Source: Halorubrum sp. Hd13 (lineage in GTDB: Archaea; Halobacteriota; Halobacteria; Halobacteriales; Haloferacaceae). Taken from it: a DNA stretch of 60,845 nucleotides. Shown here piece by piece: positions 31,244 to 43,989 of the stretch; positions within the stretch are counted from its first letter, which is position 1, and the number at the start of each line of letters is the position of its first letter. The notes under the pieces are model-generated. The model saw only the letters and a list, made by a program, of their open reading frames with translations. It searched no databases and was not told the origin of the DNA. The stretch lies in assembly GCF_002252755.1 (NCBI RefSeq), contig NZ_NHOY01000092.1, forward strand, positions 1 to 60,845. Reading direction: 5' to 3'. The position numbers were made by a program, and so were the translations under genes.

Positions 31244-32053
31244 TCAAAAAACCCGCTCACCGATCCGCCGCTCGACGGGGGCCTCCACGAGCCACCGACC
31301 GGTGAGCGTCCCGACCCGATCACGCGCGGCCGCCGGGTCGGTCGATACCGACTCGTCTCCCCGCTGCGGCCCGTAGGCGCCGAACCCGGCGTGATTGACC
31401 CCGTCGAGCTCGATCACCCGGGCGTCGTCGGGCAGGTTCGACCGGCTCTCGCGCTCGCGGTCCGCGTCGATCACCCCGTCGGCGCCCCCGAGCACCGAGA
31501 GGACCCGCAGCCCGCTCTCTGAGACGTCGCTGTCGCAGTAGGCGGCGTGGAGGACGAGCCCGTCGAGGTCGACGGCGTTGGCCGCCGCGTACCGACAGGC
31601 CATCGCGCCGCCGAGCGAGTGGCCGCCGACGTACCACGACTCGACCGCCGGGAGCGCCGCCCGCGCGTCGTCGGCCCGGTTCGGTCCGAGCACCGCGAGG
31701 TTCAGCGGCACGTCGACGATCACGACGGCGACGTCTCGCCCCGCGACCGTCGCCGCGGCGGTCGGGACGTAACTCTCCGGGTTCACGCGCGCGCCGGGAT
31801 AGTAGGCGAGTCCGACCGTCTCCGCGGTCACCGGCCCGCTCCGAACGACCGTCAGCCCGTCGAGCCGCTCGACGGTGACGGCCGACGAGGACTCGACCGC
31901 GTTCACCGCCGCCTCCTCCGGGCCCGCGCCGACCGCGAAGTAGAGCCCGGCACCGGTCGCGAGAACCGCCGCACCCAGCGCGATCACCGCGACGGCGACG
32001 GCGACGGTGCGGCGGGCGGGGAGCCGACCCGTGTCGTCTCCCTCGGGGCTCAC
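31244..32053 (-). CDS. Membrane-anchored alpha/beta hydrolase
   Basis: 269 residues. One N-terminal transmembrane helix (VAVAVAVIALGAAVLATGAG, about 17-36), then an extracellular hydrolase domain with the nucleophile elbow GGHSLGGAMA near residue 150 and a likely His in DGVNHAGFGAYG. The frame is open for a long way upstream, but the GTG at 32053 overlaps the stop of the AbrB-PhoU gene (GTGA), marking the real start and coupling the two. The product likely acts outside the membrane on an ester or peptide-like substrate; no lipase lid or typical carboxylesterase motif is seen. Confidence 0.82.
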   Translation of the reverse strand: MSPEGDDTGRLPARRTVAVAVAVIALGAAVLATGAGLYFAVGAGPEEAAVNAVESSSAVTVERLDGLTVVRSGPVTAETVGLAYYPGARVNPESYVPTAAATVAGRDVAVVIVDVPLNLAVLGPNRADDARAALPAVESWYVGGHSLGGAMACRYAAANAVDLDGLVLHAAYCDSDVSESGLRVLSVLGGADGVIDADRERESRSNLPDDARVIELDGVNHAGFGAYGPQRGDESVSTDPAAARDRVGTLTGRWLVEAPVERRIGERVF

Positions 32054-33048
32054 GGGGTCGGCGCGGCCTTCTGGAGGGCCGTCTCCGCGATGTTGCCGCC
32101 GTAGTCGGCCGACCGGAGGACGGAGTCGACGACGAGCCCGAGCAGCTGCGCGCGGGCCGGGTCCAGGTCGCGGAGGAGTTCGTCGATCGCGCGCACCCGT
32201 TCGTCGATCGCCCTGACGCCCGTGCGAGCGTCGTTCGCCAGCCGCGTCGCCTCGTCGCTGTCGTCGGCGAACAGCGCGTCCATCGCGGTGTCGATCACCT
32301 CGACCGCGTCGCCGTGGAGGTCGTTGACCGCCTCGACGACCTCGTCGGGAAGCGGCTCGTCGATGCTGAGCGTCAGGTGGCCGATCTTCGTCGCGTGGTC
32401 GCCGATCCGCTCCAGCTGGCGGGCGCTGGAGTGGTAGTCGAAACACTCCTCGCGCGGGAGGCCGAGCTCTTCGGCCGCCTTCGGCGTGCGAAGCGTCGCG
32501 CGGAAGATCCGGGAGACGACGAGCCAGAGCCGATCGAGGTCGTCGTCGCGGCCGATCACGTCGCGGGCGAGGTCGTGGTCGAGATCGGAGAGCGCGGCGA
32601 GCGCGTCCTCCAGCATCGACAGCGATATCAGCCGCATCCGGGTGACGGCGTTGTGGATCGACAGCTCCGAGGAGTCGAGCAGGTCCTGGATGACGACCCG
32701 GTCGCGCGTCTCCTCTAACACCTCCAGGCCGACGAGGCTCTGGACCGCCTCGCGGATGGCGGAGCGCTGCTCAGTGGAGATCCCGGCGCCCTCCAGTTCG
32801 ATCACGTCGAACCCGCTGACGTACATCGTCGTCACCGCCCGGGTGAGCGCCTGCCCCGAGAGGTCGGTGACGTCGAGCGTCCCGCGGGTGCGCTCCTCCT
32901 CCGACCGCGGCGTGAGGAACAGCGAGTCGCCGTCGGGGAAGAACTCGATCTCGGTGCCGGCCTCCACGCCGTTTTCCGTCGCCCACGTCTTCGGGATCGA
33001 GACCGTGTACGTCGAGCCGCCGGTGACCTGCACCTTCCTCGTTTCCAT
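32050..33048 (-). CDS. phoU: AbrB-PhoU domain regulator
   Basis: 332 residues. N-terminal SpoVT/AbrB DNA-binding domain (METRKVQVTGGSTYTVSIPK, about 1-45), then two PhoU-like three-helix bundles (about 95-175 and 200-310) with DSSELSIHNAVTRMRLISL and SSARQLERIGDHATKIGHL, the conserved PhoU helix. Haloarchaeal AbrB-PhoU proteins are linked to phosphate-dependent control of uptake and alkaline phosphatase. No pst genes lie here. The ATG at 33048 is chosen since the AbrB domain starts right there. The alpha/beta hydrolase gene overlaps its stop by 4 bases, forming an operon. Confidence 0.92.
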   Translation of the reverse strand: METRKVQVTGGSTYTVSIPKTWATENGVEAGTEIEFFPDGDSLFLTPRSEEERTRGTLDVTDLSGQALTRAVTTMYVSGFDVIELEGAGISTEQRSAIREAVQSLVGLEVLEETRDRVVIQDLLDSSELSIHNAVTRMRLISLSMLEDALAALSDLDHDLARDVIGRDDDLDRLWLVVSRIFRATLRTPKAAEELGLPREECFDYHSSARQLERIGDHATKIGHLTLSIDEPLPDEVVEAVNDLHGDAVEVIDTAMDALFADDSDEATRLANDARTGVRAIDERVRAIDELLRDLDPARAQLLGLVVDSVLRSADYGGNIAETALQKAAPTP

Positions 33049-33174
33049 GTATACAGATCGCACACGATATCCCTTAAGTTTATTCAAAATATATACTCCG
33101 TATGCGCCTCGAAAATCCGGCATAAGTCGTATCTCAGCGGCCTTAATTCGGATAGAAGCCGCGGACGAGACCTA

Positions 33175-33230: not shown

Positions 33231-33294
33231 GCGGGACGCCGACGTTCGAGGGTGAACCCCGGGCTTGAGGCGGCGGGGCGCCGATCGTTGCGTC

Positions 33295-33702
33295 ATGCCA
33301 GTCGCGACTGTCGGCGAGACGGCGTCCCACGAGGTACAGGTCACGGAGGAGGCGATCGACGCGTTCGCCGAGCTCTCGGGCGACGAGAACCCGATCCACC
33401 TCGACGACACGTACGCCGCGGAGACGATGTTCGGCGGGCGCGTAGCCCACGGGATACTGTCTGCGGCGGCGGTCTCCGCGGCGCTCGCGTCGCTCCCGGG
33501 CGACATCGTCTACCTCGAACAGGAGCTGTCGTTCGAAGCGCCAGTGCGCCCGGGCGAAACGGTCAGGGCCGCCGTCGAGGTCGTCGAGGACCTCGGCGGC
33601 GACCGACTGCGGGTGCGGACGGAGGCGTTCGTGGACGCGCGCGAGGAGCGCGTCCTCGACGGGGAAGCGACGATACTCTCGGTGGCCCACGAGGACGACT
33701 GA
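33295..33702 (+). CDS. MaoC-like (R)-specific enoyl-CoA hydratase
   Basis: 135-residue single-hotdog protein. It carries the hydratase-2 motif SGDENPIHLDD (Asp/His catalytic pair near residues 30-37), then AHGILSAAAVSAALASLPGD. MaoC hydratases act on trans-2-enoyl-CoA to give (R)-3-hydroxyacyl-CoA, often for beta-oxidation or PHA synthesis. Start ATG at 33295; ten upstream residues from 33265 look non-native. It is convergent with the KAS III-like gene, 36 bases apart, so it may take part in the same acyl-CoA chemistry as the liv block. Confidence 0.92.
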   Translation: MPVATVGETASHEVQVTEEAIDAFAELSGDENPIHLDDTYAAETMFGGRVAHGILSAAAVSAALASLPGDIVYLEQELSFEAPVRPGETVRAAVEVVEDLGGDRLRVRTEAFVDAREERVLDGEATILSVAHEDD

Positions 33703-33738: not shown

Positions 33739-34758
33739 CTACCCGTGCCAGCGGAGCACCGTCGCCGCCCACGTGTACCCGGTGCCCGCGGCGAGGAAGC
33801 AGACGAGGTCGCCGTCTGCAAGCCGACCGTCGGCCAGCCCCTCCTCGACGGCGAGCGCCTGATCGACGCTCTGGACGTGGCCGTACTCGTCGAGGTAGTA
33901 GCCGTCCCGCTCGGGGTCGAGCCCGAGCTCCTCCAGCACCAGGTCGTGGAAGGACCGCTTCATGTGCGTGAGCGCGACGAAGTCGAGGTCGGTCCGCTCG
34001 AACCCCGACCGCGACAGCGCCTCGTCGGCGACGGAGCGGAACGCCGGCAGCGAGACCGGGCCCAGTCGCTCCTTCATCCCGTCGGGGTCGGGGACCTGCA
34101 GCGCGTGGAGCCCCTCGCGCACCGTCGCCTCGCTCGGCGGGCGCTTCGACCCGCCAGCGGGCATCACGACGTCGTCGGCGAAGGAGCCGTCCGTCTCGGC
34201 CGCGCTCTCGTGGACCGTCGCGCGGGCGCGGTCGCCGGGGTCGGCCTCGACGACGAACGCGCTCGCGCCGCTCCCGAAGTTGAACATGAACGACGCGTCC
34301 TCGTCCTCGTAGTCGACGAGGTCCTCCTCCCGGCTCGCCGAGACGAGCAGCGCGGTGTCGGTCTCCTCGACCGCGAGCTGAGCCGCCGCCTGCCGGAGCG
34401 CTATCGGGGCGCCGGCACATAGCGTGTAGCTCTCGGTGGCGTAGGCGTTCTCGGCGCCCAACGCCTCGGCTATCGCGGCCGCGGCCGACCACACCACGTG
34501 GTCTTTGAACTCCGAGCCGTGGTAGAGGAGGAGGTCGACCGCGGTCGGGTCGACGTCGGCGTCCGCGAGCGCCTCGCGGGCCGCCTGCTCGGCCATGTCC
34601 GTCGCGTGGTCCCCGTCTCGCGGGCAGACGTGCTTCTCGGTCACGCCCATCTTCTCGACGACGACCTCCTCGGGGATCCCGCTGATCTCGGCGATCTCCG
34701 CGCCGGTGATCGTGTCGGGCGGCACGTACGTCCCGAGGCCGGTGATTCCGACCGTCAT
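33739..34758 (-). CDS. KAS III-like condensing enzyme (beta-ketoacyl synthase III family)
   Basis: 339-residue thiolase-fold protein. Cys114 in YTLCAGAP is the acyl-accepting nucleophile; His265 lies in LTHMKRSFHD. In FabH the third residue is Asn in YGNTSA; here the segment reads DEYGHVQS, so His294 takes that place. The glycine-rich GSGASAFVV and FLAAGTGYTWAATVLRW at the C-terminus are family-typical. Its start overlaps the stop of livM (ATGA), so it belongs to the transporter operon. Archaea lack bacterial-type fatty-acid synthesis, so a different acyl-CoA condensation is expected; the reaction is unknown. Confidence 0.88.
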   Translation of the reverse strand: MTVGITGLGTYVPPDTITGAEIAEISGIPEEVVVEKMGVTEKHVCPRDGDHATDMAEQAAREALADADVDPTAVDLLLYHGSEFKDHVVWSAAAAIAEALGAENAYATESYTLCAGAPIALRQAAAQLAVEETDTALLVSASREEDLVDYEDEDASFMFNFGSGASAFVVEADPGDRARATVHESAAETDGSFADDVVMPAGGSKRPPSEATVREGLHALQVPDPDGMKERLGPVSLPAFRSVADEALSRSGFERTDLDFVALTHMKRSFHDLVLEELGLDPERDGYYLDEYGHVQSVDQALAVEEGLADGRLADGDLVCFLAAGTGYTWAATVLRWHG

Positions 34759-35984
34759 CGGCGGTACCTCCGTAGCCGCTCCGGCAGGCGCTTGCCGACG
34801 GTCCCCCCGAGCCGGTCGCGCACCGTGCCGAGGATCCCGTTGGGGACGAACAGCACGAAGAGCACGAAGACGATCCCGAGGTAAAGCGGCGCTCGTCCGG
34901 CCAGAGCGGTGTTGACGAACAGCTCGACGCTGAGCCCGAAGACGTCGGTCTCGAGGACGGTCGCCGGGACCCCTTCACGGATGTAGGTCGCGAGACCGCC
35001 GCTCTCGGTCGAGAGCACGTCCTCTAGCCACTGGTGGAACGCCGTGCCGAACAGCGGTCCCGCCAGCGTGCCGAACCCGCCGATGATCGTCGTGATCAGC
35101 GCGTCGGCGGTGACGAGGAAGAAGTAGGAGTTGTCCGGCGACACCGACCGGGCGTACGCGGCGAAGATCCCGCCGGCGACCGCCCCGAAGAAGCCGCTGA
35201 TCGCGAACGCGGCCAGTTTGAACCGGTAGGTCGGATAGCCGACGGCGCGGGCGCGCTCCTCGTTCTCGCGGATGGCGACCATCACCCGCCCGAACGGCGA
35301 GTGGAGGATCCGCTGCATCGCGAAGTACGAGGCTAAGACGACGGCGCCCAGCGCGTAGTAGGAGACCACCGTCGCGGAGACGTCGATCCCCAGGCCGAGT
35401 AGATTCTCGACGCTGGTGCCGGTGAGCCGTCCGACCCGGAGGCTCAGCGCGTCGACGTACGGGACGCCGATCGCGAGCCCGTCGCCCCCGATCGTCGCCC
35501 CCTCTTGGGGGTTCGTGGAGACGTACCCCCACGAGCGGATCAGCTCGTAGATCACCTGCGCGAACCCGAGCGTGATCATCGCGAAGTACACCCCCGTGAG
35601 CCGGAACGAGACCGAGCCGATGACCAGCGCCAGCAGCGCCGCGAGCAGCGCGCCGAGCAGCAGCGTGATCATGAACGGCGTCCCGCCCGGGATCCCGGGG
35701 ATCTGCCCGTTCGCCGCGAGCACGACGAAGTACGCCCCGGTGCCGTAGAACGCGGCGTGGCCGAACGAGAGGTAGCCCGTGTAGCCGCTGACGAAGTCGA
35801 AGCTCATCGCGAACAGCCCCATGTACAACACGGCGATCATGAACGTGATCCCCGGGAGGAACGCCGCCGTCTCGGCCGCCAGCGGCGACGACTCCAGCGC
35901 GCCGTTGACCGGCGGGTACAGGAAGAAGACGAGGACGACGGCGGCGTGGACCGCGTGGTCCCGGGCGTAGTCGGCGAGGGTCAC
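34755..35984 (-). CDS. livM: ABC transporter permease LivM-type
   Basis: Membrane permease of the branched-chain-amino-acid type ABC importer; 409 residues, about nine helices. Signature region SFDFVSGYTGYLSFGHAAFYG (about 61-80) and the cytoplasmic EAA-like loop VRENEERARAVGYPTYRFKL as AIRENEERARAVGYPT. The start is uncertain: GTG at 35984 is 80 bases after livH, and the frame is open back to the livH stop, where an ATT (36068) overlaps it. The encoded extension would be a disordered Asp/Ala-rich tail. I use GTG. Overlaps the condensing-enzyme gene downstream by 4 bases. Confidence 0.93.
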   Translation of the reverse strand: MTLADYARDHAVHAAVVLVFFLYPPVNGALESSPLAAETAAFLPGITFMIAVLYMGLFAMSFDFVSGYTGYLSFGHAAFYGTGAYFVVLAANGQIPGIPGGTPFMITLLLGALLAALLALVIGSVSFRLTGVYFAMITLGFAQVIYELIRSWGYVSTNPQEGATIGGDGLAIGVPYVDALSLRVGRLTGTSVENLLGLGIDVSATVVSYYALGAVVLASYFAMQRILHSPFGRVMVAIRENEERARAVGYPTYRFKLAAFAISGFFGAVAGGIFAAYARSVSPDNSYFFLVTADALITTIIGGFGTLAGPLFGTAFHQWLEDVLSTESGGLATYIREGVPATVLETDVFGLSVELFVNTALAGRAPLYLGIVFVLFVLFVPNGILGTVRDRLGGTVGKRLPERLRRYRR

Positions 35985-36063
35985 GGCGCGGTCGACATCG
36001 CTGACTTCCGCGTCGTCGCGCCCGGCGTCGGCCCCCGCGTCGTCGGCGGAGGAGTCGGGGTCG

Positions 36064-37098
36064 CTAATGGCCGCCCACCTCCTCGACGCCGTAGAGGCCC
36101 TGCGGCCTGACGATCAGCATGCCGACTAACAGCAGGAAGATCGTCACCTCGGAGAGGCCGGAGAAGGTGACGACGCCGGTCGTGAACAGCCACGTCGTCA
36201 CCGAGTCCGCGATGCCAACGATCCCCGCGGCGACGACGGTGCCGCGGAAGCTCCCGAGCCCGCCGATGATCACGACGACGAACGCGTACAGGAGCACGTC
36301 GATGCTCAGCAGGACGCTCGGCCCCCAGATCGGGTCCCACATCAGCAGGACCCCGCCGACCGCGGCGAGGCCCGTCCCGACGCCGAAGACGACGGTGAAC
36401 GCCCGGCGGACGTCGATCCCGAGCGCCTGCACCATCTCGGTGTCCTCGCTCCCGGCCCGGATGTATAATCCGTACAGCGTCCGGGTGAGGAACAGCCAGA
36501 CGGCGACGAGGACGACGCCGCCGATCAGCACCTCGAACAGGTAGAGCCGCCGCACTGCGATCCCGAGGAAGTCGGTCCGTCCCAGCAGCACGTCCGGCGC
36601 GGTACCCATCGGCGCCTGCCACTGCGGGTCCGGCTGGATGCCCCGCAGCGTCAACACGATCCGCGCGACCTCCTCGATGATCAGCGAGACGCCGAACGTC
36701 AGCAGGATCTGGTAGGTCGGCGTGCGGTCGTAGATCGGTCGGATCAGCTTCAGCTCGATGAGACTGCCCGCCGCGGTGGTGACGGCGAAGACGATCGCCA
36801 TCGCGGCGAAGAAGACGCCGATCGTCGCGAGCGTCCCCGTCCCGGAGCCGACGACCAGAACGAGCACGAGCCCGCCGAGGTACGCGCCGACCATCGTGAC
36901 GGCGCCGTGGGCGAAGTTGAGCACGCCCATCAGCCCGAACACGAGTGTGAGCCCCACCGCGATGGTGAAGTAGACGGCGGCCTTGCCGAGCCCTTCGACG
37001 AGGACGCGGACCGCGGTCCGGAGCCCGTCGGCGGCGCCGCCCGTCGCGAGCAGCGGGGCCGGGTCCGCGACGCCGAGGGAGAGCGCGGTCGCGCTCAT
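36064..37098 (-). CDS. livH: ABC transporter permease LivH-type
   Basis: 344 residues with about eight or nine membrane helices. Family signatures: GLTLVFGLMGVLNFAHGAVTM (about 49-69) and the C-terminal VLLSIDVLLYAFVVVIIGGLG. Forms the transmembrane heterodimer with LivM. Start ATG at 37098 overlaps the livF stop by 4 bases (ATGA), so livF is translated just before it. Residues before about 35 (ADPAPLLATGGAADG) form a variable N-terminal extension. Confidence 0.95.
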   Translation of the reverse strand: MSATALSLGVADPAPLLATGGAADGLRTAVRVLVEGLGKAAVYFTIAVGLTLVFGLMGVLNFAHGAVTMVGAYLGGLVLVLVVGSGTGTLATIGVFFAAMAIVFAVTTAAGSLIELKLIRPIYDRTPTYQILLTFGVSLIIEEVARIVLTLRGIQPDPQWQAPMGTAPDVLLGRTDFLGIAVRRLYLFEVLIGGVVLVAVWLFLTRTLYGLYIRAGSEDTEMVQALGIDVRRAFTVVFGVGTGLAAVGGVLLMWDPIWGPSVLLSIDVLLYAFVVVIIGGLGSFRGTVVAAGIVGIADSVTTWLFTTGVVTFSGLSEVTIFLLLVGMLIVRPQGLYGVEEVGGH

Positions 37099-37793
37099 GC
37101 GGTGAGGTACCTCCGGATGCGCTCGTCCTCGCTCGTGACGCCGTCGGTGTCGCCCTCCTCGACGACGACGCCGTGGTCGACGAGGTAAAACCGGTCGGCC
37201 AGGTCCATCGCGAGCCGGAAGTTCTGCTCGACGAGTACCATCGTCGTGTCCGCGGAGGCCGCGCGGAGCGCCTCGACGACGTCGCTCACGATCTGCGGCG
37301 CGAGCCCCTCGCTGGGCTCGTCGACGAGCAGCAGGTCGTTGTCGCCGAGCATCCCGCGGGCGATCGCGAGCATCTGCTGTTGGCCGCCGCTGAGGTCGCC
37401 GGCCTCCTTGTCGGCGAACCGCTCAAGGGCCGGGAAGAGGTCGTACGCCTCCCCTATCCGGGCGTCCGGGTCGGCGGCGGCGTGGGCGGCGACGCGGAGG
37501 TTCTCCGCGACGGTCAGGTGCGCGAACACCCGCCGGTCCTCCGGCACCCACCCCATTCCGCCGCCGGCGATCTCGTGGGGCTCGCGGCCGGTGACGTCCT
37601 CGCCTTTGAATCGGACCGTCCCGCGCCGCGGCGGCGTCAGCCCGAGCGCGGTCCGTAGCGTCGTCGTCTTGCCGACCCCGTTGCGACCGACGAGCGCGAC
37701 GATCTCGTCGTCTTCGACGGTCAGGTCGAGCCCCTGCAGGATGTGGCTCTCGCCGTAGTACGTGTGGACGCCCTCGAACTCCAACACGCTCAC
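37095..37793 (-). CDS. livF: ABC transporter ATP-binding protein LivF-type
   Basis: 232-residue ATPase. Walker A GRNGVGKTTT (36-45), Q-loop, ABC signature LSGGQQQ near 138, Walker B LLLVDEPSEG, and a final VLVEQNFRLAMDLADRFYLV, where His-switch and LivF-type C-terminus fit. Its stop overlaps livH and its start overlaps livG by 4 bases. Hydrolyses ATP to drive the LivHM permease. Confidence 0.96.
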   Translation of the reverse strand: MSVLEFEGVHTYYGESHILQGLDLTVEDDEIVALVGRNGVGKTTTLRTALGLTPPRRGTVRFKGEDVTGREPHEIAGGGMGWVPEDRRVFAHLTVAENLRVAAHAAADPDARIGEAYDLFPALERFADKEAGDLSGGQQQMLAIARGMLGDNDLLLVDEPSEGLAPQIVSDVVEALRAASADTTMVLVEQNFRLAMDLADRFYLVDHGVVVEEGDTDGVTSEDERIRRYLTA

Positions 37794-38761
37794 CGGCCGC
37801 CACCTCCGCGGTTCGGCGTTCGCCCAGACGCTCGGCCCCGTTCGGCCGGCGGGGCTCGCCCTGTCGGCCGGTCGACGCGACGACCGCCGTCGGTCGCCGC
37901 CGCGGAGCCGTCGCCGTCGGTCCCGCCGCTCTGCTCCTCGCCTGTGGCGTCGCCCTCGCGGCCGTAGCCGCCGAGATACGCCTCCCTGACGGCCGGGTCG
38001 TTCCGGACCGACTCGGGCGGGCCGTCGGCGATGAGCTCGCCGCGGTGGAGCACCGCGATTCGGTCGGAGATGCCCATCACCACGTCCATGTTGTGTTCGA
38101 TCAGCATCACGGAGTGGTCGGCGGCGACGTCCTCGATCAGCGCGACCACGTCGTCGACCCCCTCGCTGGAGACCCCGGCGGTCGGCTCGTCGAGCAGGAG
38201 CAGGTCCGGGTCGCCGGCGAGCGCGACGCCGACCTCCAGGCTCCGTTTCTCGCCGTGACTGAGGTTCTCCGCGACGGCGTCGGCCGCTCCATCGAGTCCG
38301 ATCCGGTCGAGGATTTGGTGGGCCTCCTCGTAATGCGCGTCGAACGACCGAACGTTGCGCCAGAGCTTCCAGGCGTCGCCGCCCCGCGCCGCCTGCGCCG
38401 CGATCCGGACGTTTTCCAGCACCGTGAGCGTCGGGAAGAGGTTCGTGATCTGGTACGACCGGTGGATCCCGGCCAGCGCCGTCTCGTGAGGCGAGGCGTC
38501 CGTTATGTCGCGGGTGCCGACCCCGCCGTCTCCGCCCTCGCCGGCCTGGCCGCCCTCGCCGGCTCCCGCGCCCGGTGCGAACCGGATCGCGCCGTCGGAC
38601 GGCTCCAACACTCCAGTGAGGAGGTTGAAGAACGTCGTCTTCCCGGCGCCGTTCGGGCCGATGAGCGAGCAGAGCTCGCCGGACTCCAGCGCGAAGTCGA
38701 CCCCGTCGACCGCCGTGATCCCGCCGAACCGCTTCGTCAGCCCGTCGGTTTCGAGCAGCAT
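37790..38761 (-). CDS. livG: ABC transporter ATP-binding protein LivG-type
   Basis: 323-residue ATPase. Walker A GPNGAGKTTFF (35-45), then a Gly/Glu-rich insert after RFAPGAGAGEGG, the Tyr-Gln LivG motif IHRSYQITNLFPTLT, ABC signature LSHGEKRSLEVG, and Walker B DLLLLDEPTAGVS. The last 60 residues are an Arg/Gly/Asp-rich low-complexity tail (ATGEEQSGGTDGDGS... GRTPNRGGGGR) not found in typical LivG, which is about 255 residues. Start overlaps the binding-protein stop (TGATG). Confidence 0.95.
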   Translation of the reverse strand: MLLETDGLTKRFGGITAVDGVDFALESGELCSLIGPNGAGKTTFFNLLTGVLEPSDGAIRFAPGAGAGEGGQAGEGGDGGVGTRDITDASPHETALAGIHRSYQITNLFPTLTVLENVRIAAQAARGGDAWKLWRNVRSFDAHYEEAHQILDRIGLDGAADAVAENLSHGEKRSLEVGVALAGDPDLLLLDEPTAGVSSEGVDDVVALIEDVAADHSVMLIEHNMDVVMGISDRIAVLHRGELIADGPPESVRNDPAVREAYLGGYGREGDATGEEQSGGTDGDGSAAATDGGRRVDRPTGRAPPAERGRASGRTPNRGGGGR

Positions 38762-40215
38762 CACAGCGAGCAGCTGGCGTCCTCCTCGGGGACCATGACG
38801 TCCTCGGCGTCGAGCCGTTCGAGCGGCTCGCCGGGCATGATGGGCGCGTCCCACGTCTCGGCGAACTCGTCGCTCGTGGGGACCGGCCAGGCGACGGTCA
38901 TCTGGGAGGCGCCTTGGTTGTTGTGGCCCTGGAAGGTGTAGCCGTCGGCGCCCTTCGGCGTGTCGGCGACGGTCATCCCGCGCAGCGCCTCCGCGACGTC
39001 GGCGCCGTCCGTCGACCCGGACTCCGTGACGGCCTGCGAGAGGGCGGAGGCGGCGGTGAACGTCCCCGAGCTGAACAGGTCGGGGACGATGTCGTACGCG
39101 TCGATGTGCATCTGTCGGAACTCCTCGTTGATCGGGTTCTCGTACTGGTTCCAGTGGTACCGGCTGGTGAACGGACCGAGCCCGGCGTCCTTGATGTCCT
39201 GCTCGGTGAAGCCCTCGCCGAGCGCCGACTCGATCGTGCCGCCGATGAGCTGGGTCGTCAGCAGCGCCGCGAACCCGCCGAACACCTGCACGTCGAACGA
39301 GATCGCCGAGGTGAGGAACTGCGGCAGCGTCGACGCCGTGAACCCGCCGACGACGCCGGACGCGCCGTTCGAGACGGCCTCCTCGAAGAGCCCGTCGAAC
39401 TCGGAGTAGCCGACCTCGACGAACCGCGGCTCCAGCACCTCGACGCCCTGACTCTCGAGGACCGCGGTGTAGTTCTCCGCGACGCTCTGTCCGAAGGCGT
39501 TGTCGGACGCGAACACCGCGACCGTGTCGATGTCGAAGTTCTCGGCGACGTACGTGCCGCCCGCACGCGCGTCCATCGCGGTGTGCTCGCTCGCGCGGAA
39601 CGCCAGCGGGTGACAGAACTCCTCGTTCACCGTGATGCCCGCGTCGGCCGCGGGACCGATGAGGTACGGGACCTCGGACTCGTCGACGACGGTGTCGATC
39701 AGGCGCCGCGCGCTGTCCGAGGACGTGCCCCCGAAGAGGACGTCGACGTCCTCGTCGAGCACGAGGTTCGTCGCGACGTTCTGTGCGGTGTCGGGGCTGA
39801 ACTGGGTGTCCTCGACGATGATCTCGTAGGTCGGGCCGTCGTCCGTCTCCAGCGTGTAGGTGCCCGGCGTGAGCTCCTCGATCGGATCGACGTCGTGTTT
39901 GTACGCCAGCCCGGAGTAGAACCCCATGAGGCTGATCTGGCCGTAGTACTGGAGGTCACCGGAGGTCGGCTGCAGCGCCCCGATCCGGAGCGTCTCCCCG
40001 GAGAGGTCTCCGCCGTCGCCTCCGTCCTCTCCGTCGCCGGATCCCCCGTCTTCGCCGTCGCCGGAGCCGCCGTCGCCGCCGTCGCCGCTCCCGCCGTCGC
40101 TCCCGTCGCCGCCGTTTCCGGAGCAGCCGGCGAGTCCTGCGAGTCCGACTCCGCCGACCGCGGCGCCAGTTCGTCGAAGATACGACCGTCGCGTGGTTAC
40201 GTCTCGCATACGCAT
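38761..40215 (-). CDS. Lipoprotein substrate-binding protein of the Liv-type ABC transporter
   Basis: Binding protein of the importer, 484 residues. Twin-Arg-like N-terminus (TTRRSYLRRTG) and lipobox LAGC (about 31-34) predict a Tat-exported, lipid-anchored protein, typical for haloarchaea. A Gly/Asp linker (GGDGSDGGSGDGGDGGSG) joins the anchor to a leucine-binding-protein-like domain (about 80-475) with LRIGALQPTSGDLQYYGQIS and FTASTLPQF. Start at 40215 follows a TATA-like segment by about 30 bases; the ATG at 40209 is also possible. First gene of the operon SBP-livG-livF-livH-livM-KAS III. The ligand cannot be named; Liv-type proteins bind amino acids, amides, urea or aromatic acids. Confidence 0.93.
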   Translation of the reverse strand: MRMRDVTTRRSYLRRTGAAVGGVGLAGLAGCSGNGGDGSDGGSGDGGDGGSGDGEDGGSGDGEDGGDGGDLSGETLRIGALQPTSGDLQYYGQISLMGFYSGLAYKHDVDPIEELTPGTYTLETDDGPTYEIIVEDTQFSPDTAQNVATNLVLDEDVDVLFGGTSSDSARRLIDTVVDESEVPYLIGPAADAGITVNEEFCHPLAFRASEHTAMDARAGGTYVAENFDIDTVAVFASDNAFGQSVAENYTAVLESQGVEVLEPRFVEVGYSEFDGLFEEAVSNGASGVVGGFTASTLPQFLTSAISFDVQVFGGFAALLTTQLIGGTIESALGEGFTEQDIKDAGLGPFTSRYHWNQYENPINEEFRQMHIDAYDIVPDLFSSGTFTAASALSQAVTESGSTDGADVAEALRGMTVADTPKGADGYTFQGHNNQGASQMTVAWPVPTSDEFAETWDAPIMPGEPLERLDAEDVMVPEEDASCSL

Positions 40216-40361: not shown

Positions 40362-41063
40362 TCAGTTCATCCGGTCGAGCGCCTGCACGACGCTACGGAG
40401 CAGTTTCTTCTCGCCGCGGCGCATGTTCTTCGAGACCGCCGCCGTCGACACGTCGAACTCGTCGGCGAGCGTCGAGAGGGTCGCCTCTCGCGGCGACTCG
40501 AAGTAGCCGGCGTCCGCCGCCGTCTCGATGGTCTCGCGCTCGACGTCGGTGAGGTCGCGGCAGGCCTCCAACATCGTGGAGGCCGCGTTCGCGTTGCGCA
40601 TGGTGTCGAACAGCGACTCCATCGACAGCTCCGAGCGGTCCTCGACCACGAACTCGTTGCCCTTCTCCAAGTCGTGTAGCGCCGCCTCCGTGGTCTCGTC
40701 GTCGTCGAAGCCGACCTGCCACTGCTCGGAGCCGTCGGCGATCCGGAACGGGCCCGTGATGTAGCCGCCGTGGTCGGTGATCGTCGACATCGCGTTCGTC
40801 TCCTCGATGACCGTCCGGATGATCGCGGTGTCGTCCCGCTTCGAGAACAGGCGGTACTCGGCCATGTTCTCGTGGTCGCGGAGCCTCTGCAGGCCCTCGC
40901 TCAGCTCGTAGCGGTCGGACGACTCGACGAGCAGTCGGGTCTCCAGCTGTTCGGCCGCCGTGTCGAGCTGCCAATGCATCGCGGAGAACCCGACGTCGTG
41001 GTCCGCGGAGGTGTCGATGAACGGGCAGTCGAACTGCTCCATATCCATCGTGACGTCGATCAT
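40362..41063 (-). CDS. Bat-type HTH regulator
   Basis: 233 residues. N-terminal alpha/beta region of unknown fold (about 1-150) and a C-terminal HTH_10 domain (about 168-230) with LTDVERETIETAADAGYFES, STLADEFDVSTAAVSKNMRR, typical of haloarchaeal Bat-like regulators. TATA box GTTATATATG (about 41081-41092) is about 25 bases upstream of the ATG at 41063, indicating a leaderless message. Located just upstream of the liv operon and downstream of the acyl-CoA ligase gene, same strand, so it is a good candidate to control them (inference). Confidence 0.93.
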   Translation of the reverse strand: MIDVTMDMEQFDCPFIDTSADHDVGFSAMHWQLDTAAEQLETRLLVESSDRYELSEGLQRLRDHENMAEYRLFSKRDDTAIIRTVIEETNAMSTITDHGGYITGPFRIADGSEQWQVGFDDDETTEAALHDLEKGNEFVVEDRSELSMESLFDTMRNANAASTMLEACRDLTDVERETIETAADAGYFESPREATLSTLADEFDVSTAAVSKNMRRGEKKLLRSVVQALDRMN

Positions 41064-41196: not shown

Positions 41197-42783
41197 TCAC
41201 TCCCCGAACCGCTCCTCGATCGCCGCCCGGTCGATCTTCGACGGGCCCGACGTCGGCATCTCCTCGACGAACGCGAGCCCCTTCGGCACCGCGTACCGGG
41301 CGACGCGGGAGGCGAGGTGCGAGCGCAGGTCGTCGAGCGTCAGCGACTCGTCGCCCACGACCACCGCCTTCCCGACGGTCCCCCACTCCTCGCTCGGAAT
41401 CCCGATCACGACGGCCTCCTCGATCTCGGGGTGATCCGTGAGCGCGTCCTCGACTCGCGGCGGGTAGACGTTCTCCCCGCCGGAGACGAACATGTTCTTC
41501 TTGCGACCCTCGATGTGGTAGTAGCCGTCCGCGTCGACGCGGGCCAGATCGCCCGTCGAGACCCAGTCGCCGAACGTCTCGGCCGTCTCCTCGTCGTCGT
41601 TCCAGTAGCGGTCCGCCGCCGCGGGGCCGGCCAATTCAAGCTCGCCGACGGTCCCGTCCGGGACCGGGCCGTCCTCGTCGACCACGCGCGCGTCGACCGC
41701 GAGCGCGGGCACGCCGACGCTGGCGGTCTTCTCCGGCGGGAAGCCGTCGGGCATCGCGAAGTTGTTCGGGCCGCACTCCGTGAGCCCGTACCCCTGCGAT
41801 ATTTCCACGCCGCGGTCGCGCCACGCGTCGATGACGCTCTCGCGGCACGGCCCGCCCCCGCTCTTGACGAACCGCAGGGAGGAGAGATCGGTGTCGGCCC
41901 ACTCGTCGTGGCGCGCCATCATCCGGAGCACCGCGGGGACCGCGACGAGCGTCGTCGCGCGTTCGCGCTCGACGTCGGCGAGGACGCGGCCGGGATCGAC
42001 CTCGGGGCTCAACAGGATCCGCGCCCCCATCTGGAGGAAGGGGACGGTGAGCACGTTCCACCCGCCGGTGTGGAACATCGGGAACACCATCGGCGTCACG
42101 TCGTCCTCGCGGAGCCCCCACGCCGTGATCGTGTTGAACGCGTTCCAGCGGATCGCGCCGTGGCTGATCACCGTCTCCTTCGGCGTGCCCGTCGAACCGC
42201 CGGTGTGGAGGAAGAGGTGCGGGTCGGCGAGCGAGACGGCGGCGGTCTCGACCGGCGAACCGTCGTCGGGGAGGTCAGCCCCGAGCGTGCGCCACGCGTT
42301 GTCCGCGTCGGTCGCGATCGCGCGCACCGGGGGCTCGACGTCGGCGCGCTCCAAGGCGTCGACCACGTCGCCCTCGAACGGCGTCTCGGCCGCGAGGAGC
42401 GCGGGGTCGACGTCGCCGAGGACCGCCGCGAGCTCGCGCTCCGCGAGCCGGTGGGAGAGTGGGGCCAACACCGCCCCGACCTTCGCCGTCGCGAAGAACA
42501 GGTCGAGCAGCTCCACGCGATTCCGCGAGACGACGGCCACGCGGTCGCCCTTCCCGACGCCGACCTCGCGGAGGAACCGCGCGGTGCGGTTGGCGCGCTC
42601 GTCGAGGTCGGCGTACGTGTACTCCTCGCCCGCGGCCGTGTCCGTGACGGCGACGCGGTCGGGCGAGAGTCGCGCTCGGCGCGCCGACAGCGACCCCACC
42701 CACTCGTACGCCCGGTCGCCGTGCGGGTGCGGCCGGGGGTCGTCGGCTCCCTCCCCGCCACTCCGCGGATCGTTCCCGGCCAT
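41197..42783 (-). CDS. AMP-dependent acyl-CoA synthetase/ligase
   Basis: Activates a carboxylic acid to its CoA thioester via an acyl-AMP. 528 residues of the ANL superfamily. P-loop HTGGSTGTPKETV near 190, VFPMFHTGGWN, A5-type YGLTECGPNN near 340, A8 DWVSTGDLARVDADGYYHI and the terminal A10 Lys in GPSKIDRAAI. Similar to medium/long-chain or benzoate-type ligases; substrate unknown. The alpha/beta hydrolase gene lies immediately upstream, with one base between its stop and this ATG (TGAGATG), so the two form an operon. Confidence 0.93.
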   Translation of the reverse strand: MAGNDPRSGGEGADDPRPHPHGDRAYEWVGSLSARRARLSPDRVAVTDTAAGEEYTYADLDERANRTARFLREVGVGKGDRVAVVSRNRVELLDLFFATAKVGAVLAPLSHRLAERELAAVLGDVDPALLAAETPFEGDVVDALERADVEPPVRAIATDADNAWRTLGADLPDDGSPVETAAVSLADPHLFLHTGGSTGTPKETVISHGAIRWNAFNTITAWGLREDDVTPMVFPMFHTGGWNVLTVPFLQMGARILLSPEVDPGRVLADVERERATTLVAVPAVLRMMARHDEWADTDLSSLRFVKSGGGPCRESVIDAWRDRGVEISQGYGLTECGPNNFAMPDGFPPEKTASVGVPALAVDARVVDEDGPVPDGTVGELELAGPAAADRYWNDDEETAETFGDWVSTGDLARVDADGYYHIEGRKKNMFVSGGENVYPPRVEDALTDHPEIEEAVVIGIPSEEWGTVGKAVVVGDESLTLDDLRSHLASRVARYAVPKGLAFVEEMPTSGPSKIDRAAIEERFGE

Positions 42784-42784
42784 C

Positions 42785-43591
42785 TCAGGCGACCCCGTCG
42801 AGGAACGACCGGATCCTGTCGTCGACGGCGTCCCGCTCCTCGATGAAGAAAAGGTGGGGCCCGCCCTCGATCCGTTCGACCGTCGCGTGCCGGATGAGTT
42901 CGGCCAGACGGTCCGCGTTCTCGACCGGGAGCACCCGGTCGGCGGTGCCGTGGACCACCAGCGTCGGGACCGACAGCTCGCCGAGCCGGTCGGACGCGTC
43001 GAACGCGGCGACCGCGGCGGCCTGCGCCTCCCGGCCCGCGGGCGTCGCGTCGCCCGACAGCCGCCAGTCGACGATCCGATCGACGAGCTCCGGCTCGCGC
43101 TCGTAGAACCCGTCGCTCACCGCGGGCTCCATCAGGTACCGGATCCGCTCCCGCGGGTCCGCGTCCTCGGGCGCGGAGAAGATGTGATCTTGAACCTCGG
43201 GCGGCGTCTCGGCCGCGCCCTCGCCGCCTGGCGAGGTGCAAAGCAGGGTCAGCGAGGCGACCCGCTCGTCGGTCAGCGCGAGCTCCTGCGCGATCATGCC
43301 GCCCATCGAGGCGCCGCAGACGTGCACCCGGTCGACGCCGCGGTCGTCGAGCACGGCCCGCGCGTCGGCCGCCATCTCGGCGATCGCGTACGGCCCCTCC
43401 GGGACGTCGGAGTCGCCGGTCCCGCGGTTGTCGGGACGGAGCACCTCGTACCCGTCCGCGAGGTCCTCGGTCAGCCACCGCCACATCCAGCGACCGTACC
43501 CCAGCCCCTCTAAGAGGAGGACCGTCGCGCCGTCGCTTTTCCCGTCGACGGCGTAATTTATCGCGACGCCGTCGCGTGTCGCTCTCGGCAT
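42785..43591 (-). CDS. Alpha/beta hydrolase
   Basis: 268-residue hydrolase. Nucleophile elbow CGASMGGM (Ser near residue 100), acid Asp in VHGTADRVLPVENA, and His in GGPHLFFIEE; oxyanion motif LEGLGYGRWMW. The sequence resembles enol-lactone or haloperoxidase-like hydrolases (RPDNRGTGDSD). Co-transcribed with the acyl-CoA ligase downstream, which suggests that it opens an ester or lactone and the acid is then activated with CoA (inference). The ATG at 43591 is chosen; upstream frame lies across the tRNA region and is not protein-like. Confidence 0.92.
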   Translation of the reverse strand: MPRATRDGVAINYAVDGKSDGATVLLLEGLGYGRWMWRWLTEDLADGYEVLRPDNRGTGDSDVPEGPYAIAEMAADARAVLDDRGVDRVHVCGASMGGMIAQELALTDERVASLTLLCTSPGGEGAAETPPEVQDHIFSAPEDADPRERIRYLMEPAVSDGFYEREPELVDRIVDWRLSGDATPAGREAQAAAVAAFDASDRLGELSVPTLVVHGTADRVLPVENADRLAELIRHATVERIEGGPHLFFIEERDAVDDRIRSFLDGVA

Positions 43592-43785: not shown

Positions 43786-43896
43786 GCTCGGTTGGTGTAG
43801 TCCGGCCAATCATGTTGGCCTTTCGACGGATGCGGCGCATCGGTGCGCCGGTTCGGAAGTCAGCCGACGACCAGGGTTCAAATCCCTGACCGAGCA
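43786..43896 (+). tRNA. tRNA-Glu (anticodon TTC) with intron
   Basis: Acceptor GCTCGGT/ACCGAGC plus discriminator A, D-arm GTGTAGTCCGGCCAATCAT, T-arm CAGGG-TTCAAAT-CCCTG. The anticodon arm TTGGC/GCCGA is interrupted by a 36-base intron (43826-43861). After splicing the loop reads C-T-TTC-G-A, giving anticodon TTC. TATA-like AGTTAAATC lies about 25 bases upstream. CCA is not encoded. Confidence 0.92.
43826..43861 (+). other. tRNA-Glu intron
   Basis: 36-base intron after position 37, in the canonical archaeal place. Precursor pairing gives a bulge-helix-bulge: CTTT (32-35) with GAAG at the intron's 3' end, 3-base bulges CGA and TCA, and flanking helices CGGA/TTCG and TTGGC/GCCGA. Cleavage after the second bulge base gives the intron bounds used here. 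Confidence 0.85.
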
Positions 43897-43989
43897 CTTC
43901 TCGCGAAACCGCTCCGGCAGCGACGGGTCCGTTCGGCCACCGCCGCTCCGAAGGGGAAGAATCACCACGCTCGCCGACGAGTCCCCGAT

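Follow-up and report, generated by a model that had tools for sequence, protein, structure and literature searches.

The 60,845 nt of contig NZ_NHOY01000092.1 of Halorubrum sp. Hd13 (assembly GCF_002252755.1) that we analyzed, called the window from here on, carry at 33739-40215 of the minus strand six consecutive genes in the order SBP-livG-livF-livH-livM-KAS, that is, the genes of a substrate-binding protein (SBP), of the ATPases and permeases of a Liv-type importer, and of an enzyme of the KAS III fold (KAS). Pfam recognizes in this set a complete Liv/HAAT transporter (the SBP, two BPD_transp_2 permeases, and two ABC ATPases), in agreement with the gene identities that a preliminary description of this DNA had given at the same place, and it also confirms the MaoC hydratase, Bat-type regulator, acyl-coenzyme A (acyl-CoA) ligase, and alpha/beta hydrolase mentioned there as neighbors (Table 1). 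Nearly all of the genes from SBP to KAS had been said to overlap by their stop and start codons, and in the sequence all five junctions do so, namely, TGATG between SBP and livG (1 nt of overlap), GTGA between livG and livF (4 nt), ATGA between livF and livH (4 nt), ATTAG between livH and livM (5 nt), and ATGA again between livM and KAS (4 nt), one of these overlaps using what is apparently a non-canonical start, the ATT of livM. The nearest solved relatives of the SBP are PDB entries 3n0x and 3nnd (profile match with E 2e-98), both titled “possible substrate binding protein” with the ligand unstated, and in the NCBIfam profile search none of the Liv and urea equivalog models scored to its cut-off for the window transporter. 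The set has the complete SBP and GFHM composition in common with other HAAT/Liv ABC importers and differs from them by its linkage to CoA-activation and 3-oxoacyl chemistry.

Table 1. Genes and signals of the importer-enzyme operon and its neighbors, in window coordinates.
Feature	Position	Strand	Length (aa)	Family match and remarks
SBP	38761..40215	-	484	Peripla_BP_6 8e-50; acidic Gly/Asp linker
livG ATPase	37790..38761	-	323	ABC_tran + BCA_ABC_TP_C
livF ATPase	37095..37793	-	232	ABC_tran 2.2e-30; GTG start overlaps livG stop
livH permease	36064..37098	-	344	BPD_transp_2 1.6e-32
Shine-Dalgarno-like AGGAGGTG	36076..36083	-		inside livH end, 7 nt before livM ATT
Apparent livM ATT start codon	36068-36066	-		overlaps livH stop TAG (36066-36064)
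livM permease	34755..36068	-	437	BPD_transp_2; read from ATT start
KAS III-fold enzyme	33739..34758	-	339	NCBIfam NF005308/PRK06840; Cys114, His265, Lys267, His294, Glu83
Bat-type regulator	40362..41063	-		HVO_2525_N + HTH_10
Acyl-CoA ligase	41197..42783	-	528	AMP-binding 1.8e-79
Alpha/beta hydrolase	42785..43591	-		Abhydrolase_1; PcaD/esterase-like
MaoC hydratase	33265..33702	+		MaoC_dehydratas 1.9e-25; convergent with the operon, downstream

The association of these genes is kept well beyond the window. Of 148 same-family genomes, sampled from a larger group, 33 have a KAS above the NF005308 cut-off, and nearly all of 20 fetched loci keep the SBP-livG-livF-livH-livM-KAS order, with regulator, ligase, hydrolase, and MaoC usually close by (single subunits fell under detection in a few of the 20, and one short stretch stops before the ligase); most of the named haloarchaeal loci have this order as well. 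A scan of GTDB r220 with one genome per species gave 80 KAS loci, about 55 of them haloarchaeal and the rest from Chloroflexota plus one Halanaerobiaceae genome, and when about 250 genomes each were drawn from the Chloroflexota and from the phylum of the Halanaerobiaceae genome, 21 in either group were above the KAS cut-off. Thermus composti was the only control genome to exceed it, and in a plasmid collection the KAS matches at E < 1e-20 were exclusively haloarchaeal. We then counted linked genes in loci of at least 14 kb, within 10 kb of KAS, the counts being lower bounds from a simple open reading frame (ORF) caller and BLAST clusters, over loci that are non-independent samples. Near the KAS of 45 haloarchaeal loci there are livH (40), SBP (39), livM (39), regulator (32), ligase (32), hydrolase (30), a short-chain dehydrogenase/reductase (SDR; 15), and MaoC (12); near that of 19 Chloroflexota loci, ligase (13), ATPases (13), hydrolase (10), MaoC (8), and SDR (6); and near that of 17 Bacillota loci, livM (15), hydrolase (14), a CoA-transferase (13), SBP (11), SDR (6), MaoC (6), a second KAS (5), and ligase (3), the CoA-transferase mostly occupying the place of the ligase. 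The gene orders differ among the three phyla that share the cassette, and, as a control, homologues of KAS, ligase, hydrolase, and MaoC were absent from the 20 kb sampled at the host's two remaining Liv operons. This linkage supports the view that the importer, the CoA-activating enzyme, the hydrolase, the hydratase, and the KAS homologue form one conserved functional set, which, judged by gene content, is not peculiar to haloarchaea, being present also in Chloroflexota and Bacillota. The proximity of the Bat-type regulator in the haloarchaeal loci is as expected for a local regulator, a role that we predict for it.

Several additional genes accompany particular copies. Bacterial clusters frequently contain another paralogue of the KAS III kind (KAS2), in which Tyr occupies the column of the FabH Asn and the other loop has Gln or Asn (our loci L173, L171, L118, L125, L128, L167, L168, L170, and L175), and L173 has two PRK06840 copies, one beside a CoA-transferase and the other beside a ligase. 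Two Halobaculum plasmids carry, downstream of KAS, a set of four genes for a 2-oxoacid dehydrogenase (E1 alpha, E1 beta, a separate lipoyl domain, and E2), directly after it in one (L052) and several genes later in the other (L054). These dehydrogenase genes, as well as a tryptophanase and an enolase-superfamily-like protein beside some copies, are lineage-specific, and we made no use of them in our reading.

The haloarchaeal KAS has a bacterial ancestry. In a maximum likelihood tree of 62 dereplicated KAS sequences, KAS2 paralogues, and one FabH, all 29 haloarchaeal sequences fall in a single clade (100/100), sister to Chloroflexota and nested within the bacterial diversity, this clade being more certain than the root, which hangs on a long outgroup branch. 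On this tree, the haloarchaeal KAS was acquired once from bacteria. With the window livH, a KAS-linked fragment from Thermoflexus shares 56% identity (a partial match) and other KAS-linked Chloroflexota livH about 33-41%, compared with 27-29% for the paralogues in its own genome; because it is nearer to the Chloroflexota genes than to these paralogues, a shared history of importer and enzymes is suggested, which fits with both having traveled together.

The KAS protein itself scores 413.7 bits against NF005308 (PRK06840), above the curated cut-off of 315, and its AlphaFold2 model (pLDDT 92.3, pTM 0.92) has exclusively FabH/KAS III structures as best Foldseek matches, at about 22% identity (22% to 2ebd, with a TM-score of 0.83-0.92). 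The KAS III fold and the nucleophilic Cys (Cys114 in the window, conserved in 92 of the 94 family members over which residues were counted) are common to both enzymes, but the catalytic His/Asn pair of FabH is missing from the family: the position of FabH His244 is taken by Thr, Val, Leu, or Ile, and that of Asn274 by a His in 94/94 members. The residue next to the FabH His column is a His in 92 of them (window His265, one residue off in the sequence alignment), and Lys267 and Asp299 are kept in 93 and 94, respectively. Lys267 is a further difference from FabH, as is a charged lid of Glu83, Lys85, and Asp86. Glu83 is found in all 48 haloarchaeal, in 26 of 27 Chloroflexota, and in 12 of 19 Bacillota sequences, and in an alignment with the 3-hydroxy-3-methylglutaryl-CoA (HMG-CoA) synthase of the host, it matches the glutamate that is catalytic there; given that it is missing in 7/19 Bacillota members, we did not adopt as established the idea that it acts throughout the family as an HMG-CoA-synthase-like base. 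Besides this glutamate, the likeness to HMG-CoA synthase is low, with scores far under the family models (48.4 of 353 bits for TIGR00748 and 70.1 of 244 for NF003274).

A search for acyl carrier protein (ACP) gave no PF00550 (PP-binding) match in the host genome, which is 100% complete by the tool's figure, the same search being positive in 11 of 14 control genomes. The name “3-oxoacyl-ACP synthase” is therefore misleading and cannot be literal in a host with no detectable ACP. The comparison with degradative thiolases is instructive as well, since among their motifs CxS, NEAF, GHP, and CxG (PMC3406046), only a GH is present in KAS, at a GHP-like place. KAS differs from these enzymes in belonging to the KAS III sequence family and in having neither the NEAF motif nor the CxG cysteine. 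What it would have in common with them is a catabolic role, as we expect, and a His in a loop that we take to be the equivalent of the thiolase GHP loop.

The linked genes of the relatives give the clearest clues about the function, with two cautions that apply throughout: several of the family assignments are best matches under curated cut-offs, and the polyhydroxyalkanoate (PHA)/3-hydroxybutyrate theme was recognized after seeing the matches of many comparisons instead of having been predicted beforehand. The SDRs of the haloarchaeal clusters, which are divergent from the SBP gene or near it, have 3-hydroxybutyrate (3HB) dehydrogenases as their top three NCBIfam models in 7/7 cases tested, and one of them searched against the PDB had 3HB dehydrogenases as its 13 best matches. 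Their alignment shows the SxH-K-Y-K and NxAGxQH patterns typical of 3HB dehydrogenases, presumably the carboxylate clamp. In Bacillota, 8 of 10 chosen hydrolases match NF050089 (intracellular short-chain-length PHA depolymerase) at E < 1e-80, a proportion that is not the rate for all linked hydrolases, since the 10 were chosen out of a cluster in which the PcaD-like ones are not included; at least three of them are above the cut-off of 300 (375.3, 461.6, and 372.3 bits), and one matches the polyhydroxybutyrate (PHB) depolymerase of PDB 8ynv with E 1.8e-88. The Bacillota CoA-transferase is of the butyryl-CoA:acetate type (290.6 bits, under the cut-off of 674.8) and takes the position that the ligase has in aerobes; some Bacillota loci add an acyl-CoA dehydrogenase and EtfAB, the latter recognized by inspection of the sequences. 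Arranged side by side, the relatives share with the known PHB/3HB route (PhaZ, 3HB dehydrogenase, CoA transfer, and thiolase) the PHA depolymerase family, the 3HB-dehydrogenase-like SDR, the CoA-transferase or ligase, and the hydratase, and the cassette differs from that route by its Liv importer and by a KAS III homologue in the place expected for the thiolase.

In the window, the regulator, ligase, and hydrolase lie upstream of the SBP gene on the strand of the operon, with the hydrolase stop codon 1 nt ahead of the ligase ATG. The closest paralogue of the ligase in its own genome is 37% identical; the nearest NCBIfam model of the hydrolase is pcaD (TIGR02427; 150.7 bits, under the cut-off of 255.85), and for the MaoC protein the nearest match is PRK08190, in its enoyl-CoA hydratase part. 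A gene for tRNA-Glu(TTC) that contains an intron of 36 nt (43786-43897, plus strand) lies immediately upstream of that of the hydrolase and was overlooked by a standard intron-less tRNA scan, and the MaoC gene is adjoined by one for a protein that has a PhoU domain and, at its N terminus, a MazE/AbrB-like domain (32050-33123, minus strand).

Taking all of this together, we suggest, at about even odds, that this cassette serves the uptake and catabolism of small carboxylic acids with a 3-hydroxy or 3-oxo group, or of their esters, our confidence being lower for any single substrate; PHA monomers or oligomers such as 3HB are the best candidates. In such a pathway, the SBP and LivGFHM would import the compound, the hydrolase would open an ester or lactone, the ligase (or the CoA-transferase in Bacillota) would form the CoA thioester, the SDR, where present, and MaoC would interconvert the 3-oxo, 3-hydroxy, and enoyl forms, and finally the KAS III-fold enzyme would cleave the 3-oxoacyl-CoA in a thiolase-like manner, with Cys114 accepting the acyl group. 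The common denominator of the genes linked in the relatives would be 3-hydroxy/3-oxoacyl chemistry after uptake, in the direction of breakdown, a hypothesis that has good support in those relatives. The preliminary description had envisaged that a small acid is imported, activated with CoA, and condensed or hydrated, and the import, activation, and hydratase parts of that proposal do stand as one conserved set, while “condenses” is probably the wrong direction: we favor cleavage because the host has no detectable ACP, because the FabH His/Asn pair is missing, and because 3HB-dehydrogenase-like, PHA-depolymerase, and CoA-transferase genes are linked in the relatives. Its author had also been unable to match these genes to a described haloarchaeal pathway; the literature that we searched, which excluded most subscription journals, likewise contained nothing on PRK06840, the cassette, or the livM ATT start, but the set is not specific to haloarchaea, as its Chloroflexota and Bacillota members make clear.

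Several observations weigh against this catabolic proposal. Two genomes of the family Haloferacaceae (L200 and L199) have the Liv genes and the ATTAG junction with KAS absent, and L200 even retains the regulator, ligase, and hydrolase, so KAS is not strictly required. With the CxG cysteine gone, a thiolase mechanism would need another base. The haloarchaeal cluster SDRs reach 189-226 bits, under the 3HB-dehydrogenase cut-off of 307, and an SDR ortholog was found neither in the window cluster nor in the host genome (best 32%). The window hydrolase scores 58.4 bits against NF050089 (cut-off 300) and is PcaD/esterase-like, not a PHA depolymerase. For the window copy the support is therefore indirect, as it has no SDR, no PHA depolymerase, and a hydrolase of the PcaD/esterase type, and for this reason we grade the catabolic reading as a whole as moderate. 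As for the two genomes with KAS absent, a canonical thiolase in replacement of it was looked for in both and none was seen; in L200 a hotdog-thioesterase-like ORF, judged by eye from its translation, follows livM, and L199 showed nothing informative.

A biosynthetic cassette is the best of the alternatives, although we consider it unlikely: KAS would condense the activated imported acid with another acyl unit, and the SDR and MaoC would process the product into a PHA precursor, a PqsD-like signal, or another metabolite. FabH is, after all, the closest fold of KAS, the SDRs of the bacterial clusters score best as FabG/acetoacetyl-CoA reductase, and in 8 bacterial loci the second KAS III paralogue stands beside KAS in a way that recalls paired ketosynthases. 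However, condensation of the FabH kind is hard to reconcile with a host where ACP is undetectable and with an enzyme that has neither the His nor the Asn of FabH; no gene supplying malonyl-CoA was seen in the sampled neighborhoods, and the linked genes of the 3HB-dehydrogenase-like and PHA-depolymerase families indicate breakdown instead.

Somewhat less probable still is the degradation of aromatic or lignin-derived acids, in which a Liv-type SBP, a feruloyl-CoA-synthetase-like ligase, and a PcaD-like lactonase would feed a beta-ketoadipate-like cleavage by KAS. The best PDB matches of the ligase, the fatty-acyl-/feruloyl-CoA synthetase pair 8weu and 8wev, point in this direction, as do pcaD being the nearest model of the hydrolase and the profile matches of the SBP to Rhodopseudomonas-type SBPs, some of which bind aromatics. 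Nevertheless, no ring-cleavage or decarboxylase gene was recognized in the clusters, the ligase and lactonase scores are all under their cut-offs, and the linkage to PHA-depolymerase and 3HB-dehydrogenase genes would be left unexplained. Finally, a branched-chain amino acid importer of the ordinary kind, accompanied by enzymes that are mere passengers and belong to no common pathway, would be compatible with transporter subunits that are all of the common HAAT/Liv type and with a substrate left undefined by the equivalog models. It is improbable in view of the repeated linkage of these genes in three phyla, in varying order, and of the host's other Liv operons, neither of which has such enzymes within the 20 kb sampled.

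The second subject of interest is the apparent start of livM at ATT, a codon that hardly ever serves as a start. The junction reads CC ATT AG, with the ATT and the livH TAG sharing a base, and the first canonical in-frame start of the window livM is a GTG at codon index 28. The CATTAG junction is present in 44 of 47 haloarchaeal loci, and among the other three, two read GGATGA, which gives a canonical ATG, and in the last one (L071) the livM frame is broken. The Shine-Dalgarno-like AGGAGGTG is found 7 nt upstream in 36 of the 47, and GAGGTG in 43. In the same genes, CAT makes up 45 of 412 His codons and TAG 7 of 47 livM stops, and the third base of a nearby Gly codon varies freely (C18, T16, G12, and A1); since both CAT and TAG are minority codons and the Gly third base is free, neither codon bias nor recent common descent alone accounts for the conservation of CATTAG. 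The frame between the ATT and the conserved core (17-109 codons) is stop-free in 44/44 loci, its third positions have 82% GC, and acidic residues make up 25% of its translation; 29 of the 44 have no ATG, GTG, or TTG in it; in several Halorubrum the first canonical livM codon lies about 76-98 codons in. An 18-base junction, GAGGTGGGNGGCCATTAG, occurs in 34 of the 148 family genomes, 32 of which bear KAS, and its reversed control in none. The corresponding junction of the host's other Liv operons and of the second Liv operon of Halomicrococcus is ATGA, and bacterial livM orthologues have ATG or GTG near the livH stop.

The passages of Huber et al. 2019 (PMC6728339) on haloarchaeal termination-reinitiation pairs describe ATGA and TGATG overlaps and do not mention ATTAG. 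With the pairs in those passages, livH/livM has in common the overlapping stop and start and a Shine-Dalgarno motif in the upstream gene, again in a haloarchaeon, and it differs in having an ATT within ATTAG. We consider it likely that livM begins at an AUU kept across the class Halobacteria, via ribosomes terminating on livH. Translation along the operon would be coupled from gene to gene, with reinitiation on the livM ATT after termination at the livH stop. Alternatively, LivM could be made as part of a LivH-LivM fusion through +1 frameshifting or could start at a downstream GTG, a reading that could be defended by the livM frame, which in most loci remains open for 41-77 nt ahead of the livH stop, by the strong Shine-Dalgarno-like sequence just before that stop, and by the PGAP annotations of four public plasmid copies, which put the livM start 85-300 nt downstream of it. 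We regard this as rather unlikely, given that the bacterial starts lie near the livH stop, that two haloarchaeal loci have ATG for ATT, and that most loci offer no canonical codon ahead of the core; moreover, by our reasoning, slippage from CAU to AUU would mismatch the tRNA-His pairing. The AUU start by termination-reinitiation is the most economical reading of the junction, with the +1 frameshift fusion less likely. The weak AUU start may set the dosage of LivM or force a strict LivH-LivM coupling. The AUU start of infC in E. coli is the comparison case for a conserved start of this kind. From the genomic comparisons above we infer this use of AUU, just as we infer the direction, the substrate, and the cleavage chemistry of the pathway.

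In summary, the genes that databases label as a branched-chain amino acid transporter and a fatty-acid synthase enzyme more likely form a cassette, shared across domains, for scavenging small 3-hydroxy or 3-oxo acids, possibly bioplastic fragments, in brines. If this is true, many haloarchaeal genomes would be freed of a misleading annotation, and the cassette would point to an enzyme of the KAS III fold whose Cys-His-His site is unusual and which may act in the direction of breakdown. The conserved livM ATT implies that the LivM proteins of this family are truncated by gene finders, and, if our reading of it is correct, archaea would have in it an AUU start of deep conservation, natural and evolutionarily selected, and available in genetically tractable organisms such as Haloferax and Halorubrum for research on archaeal start-codon recognition.

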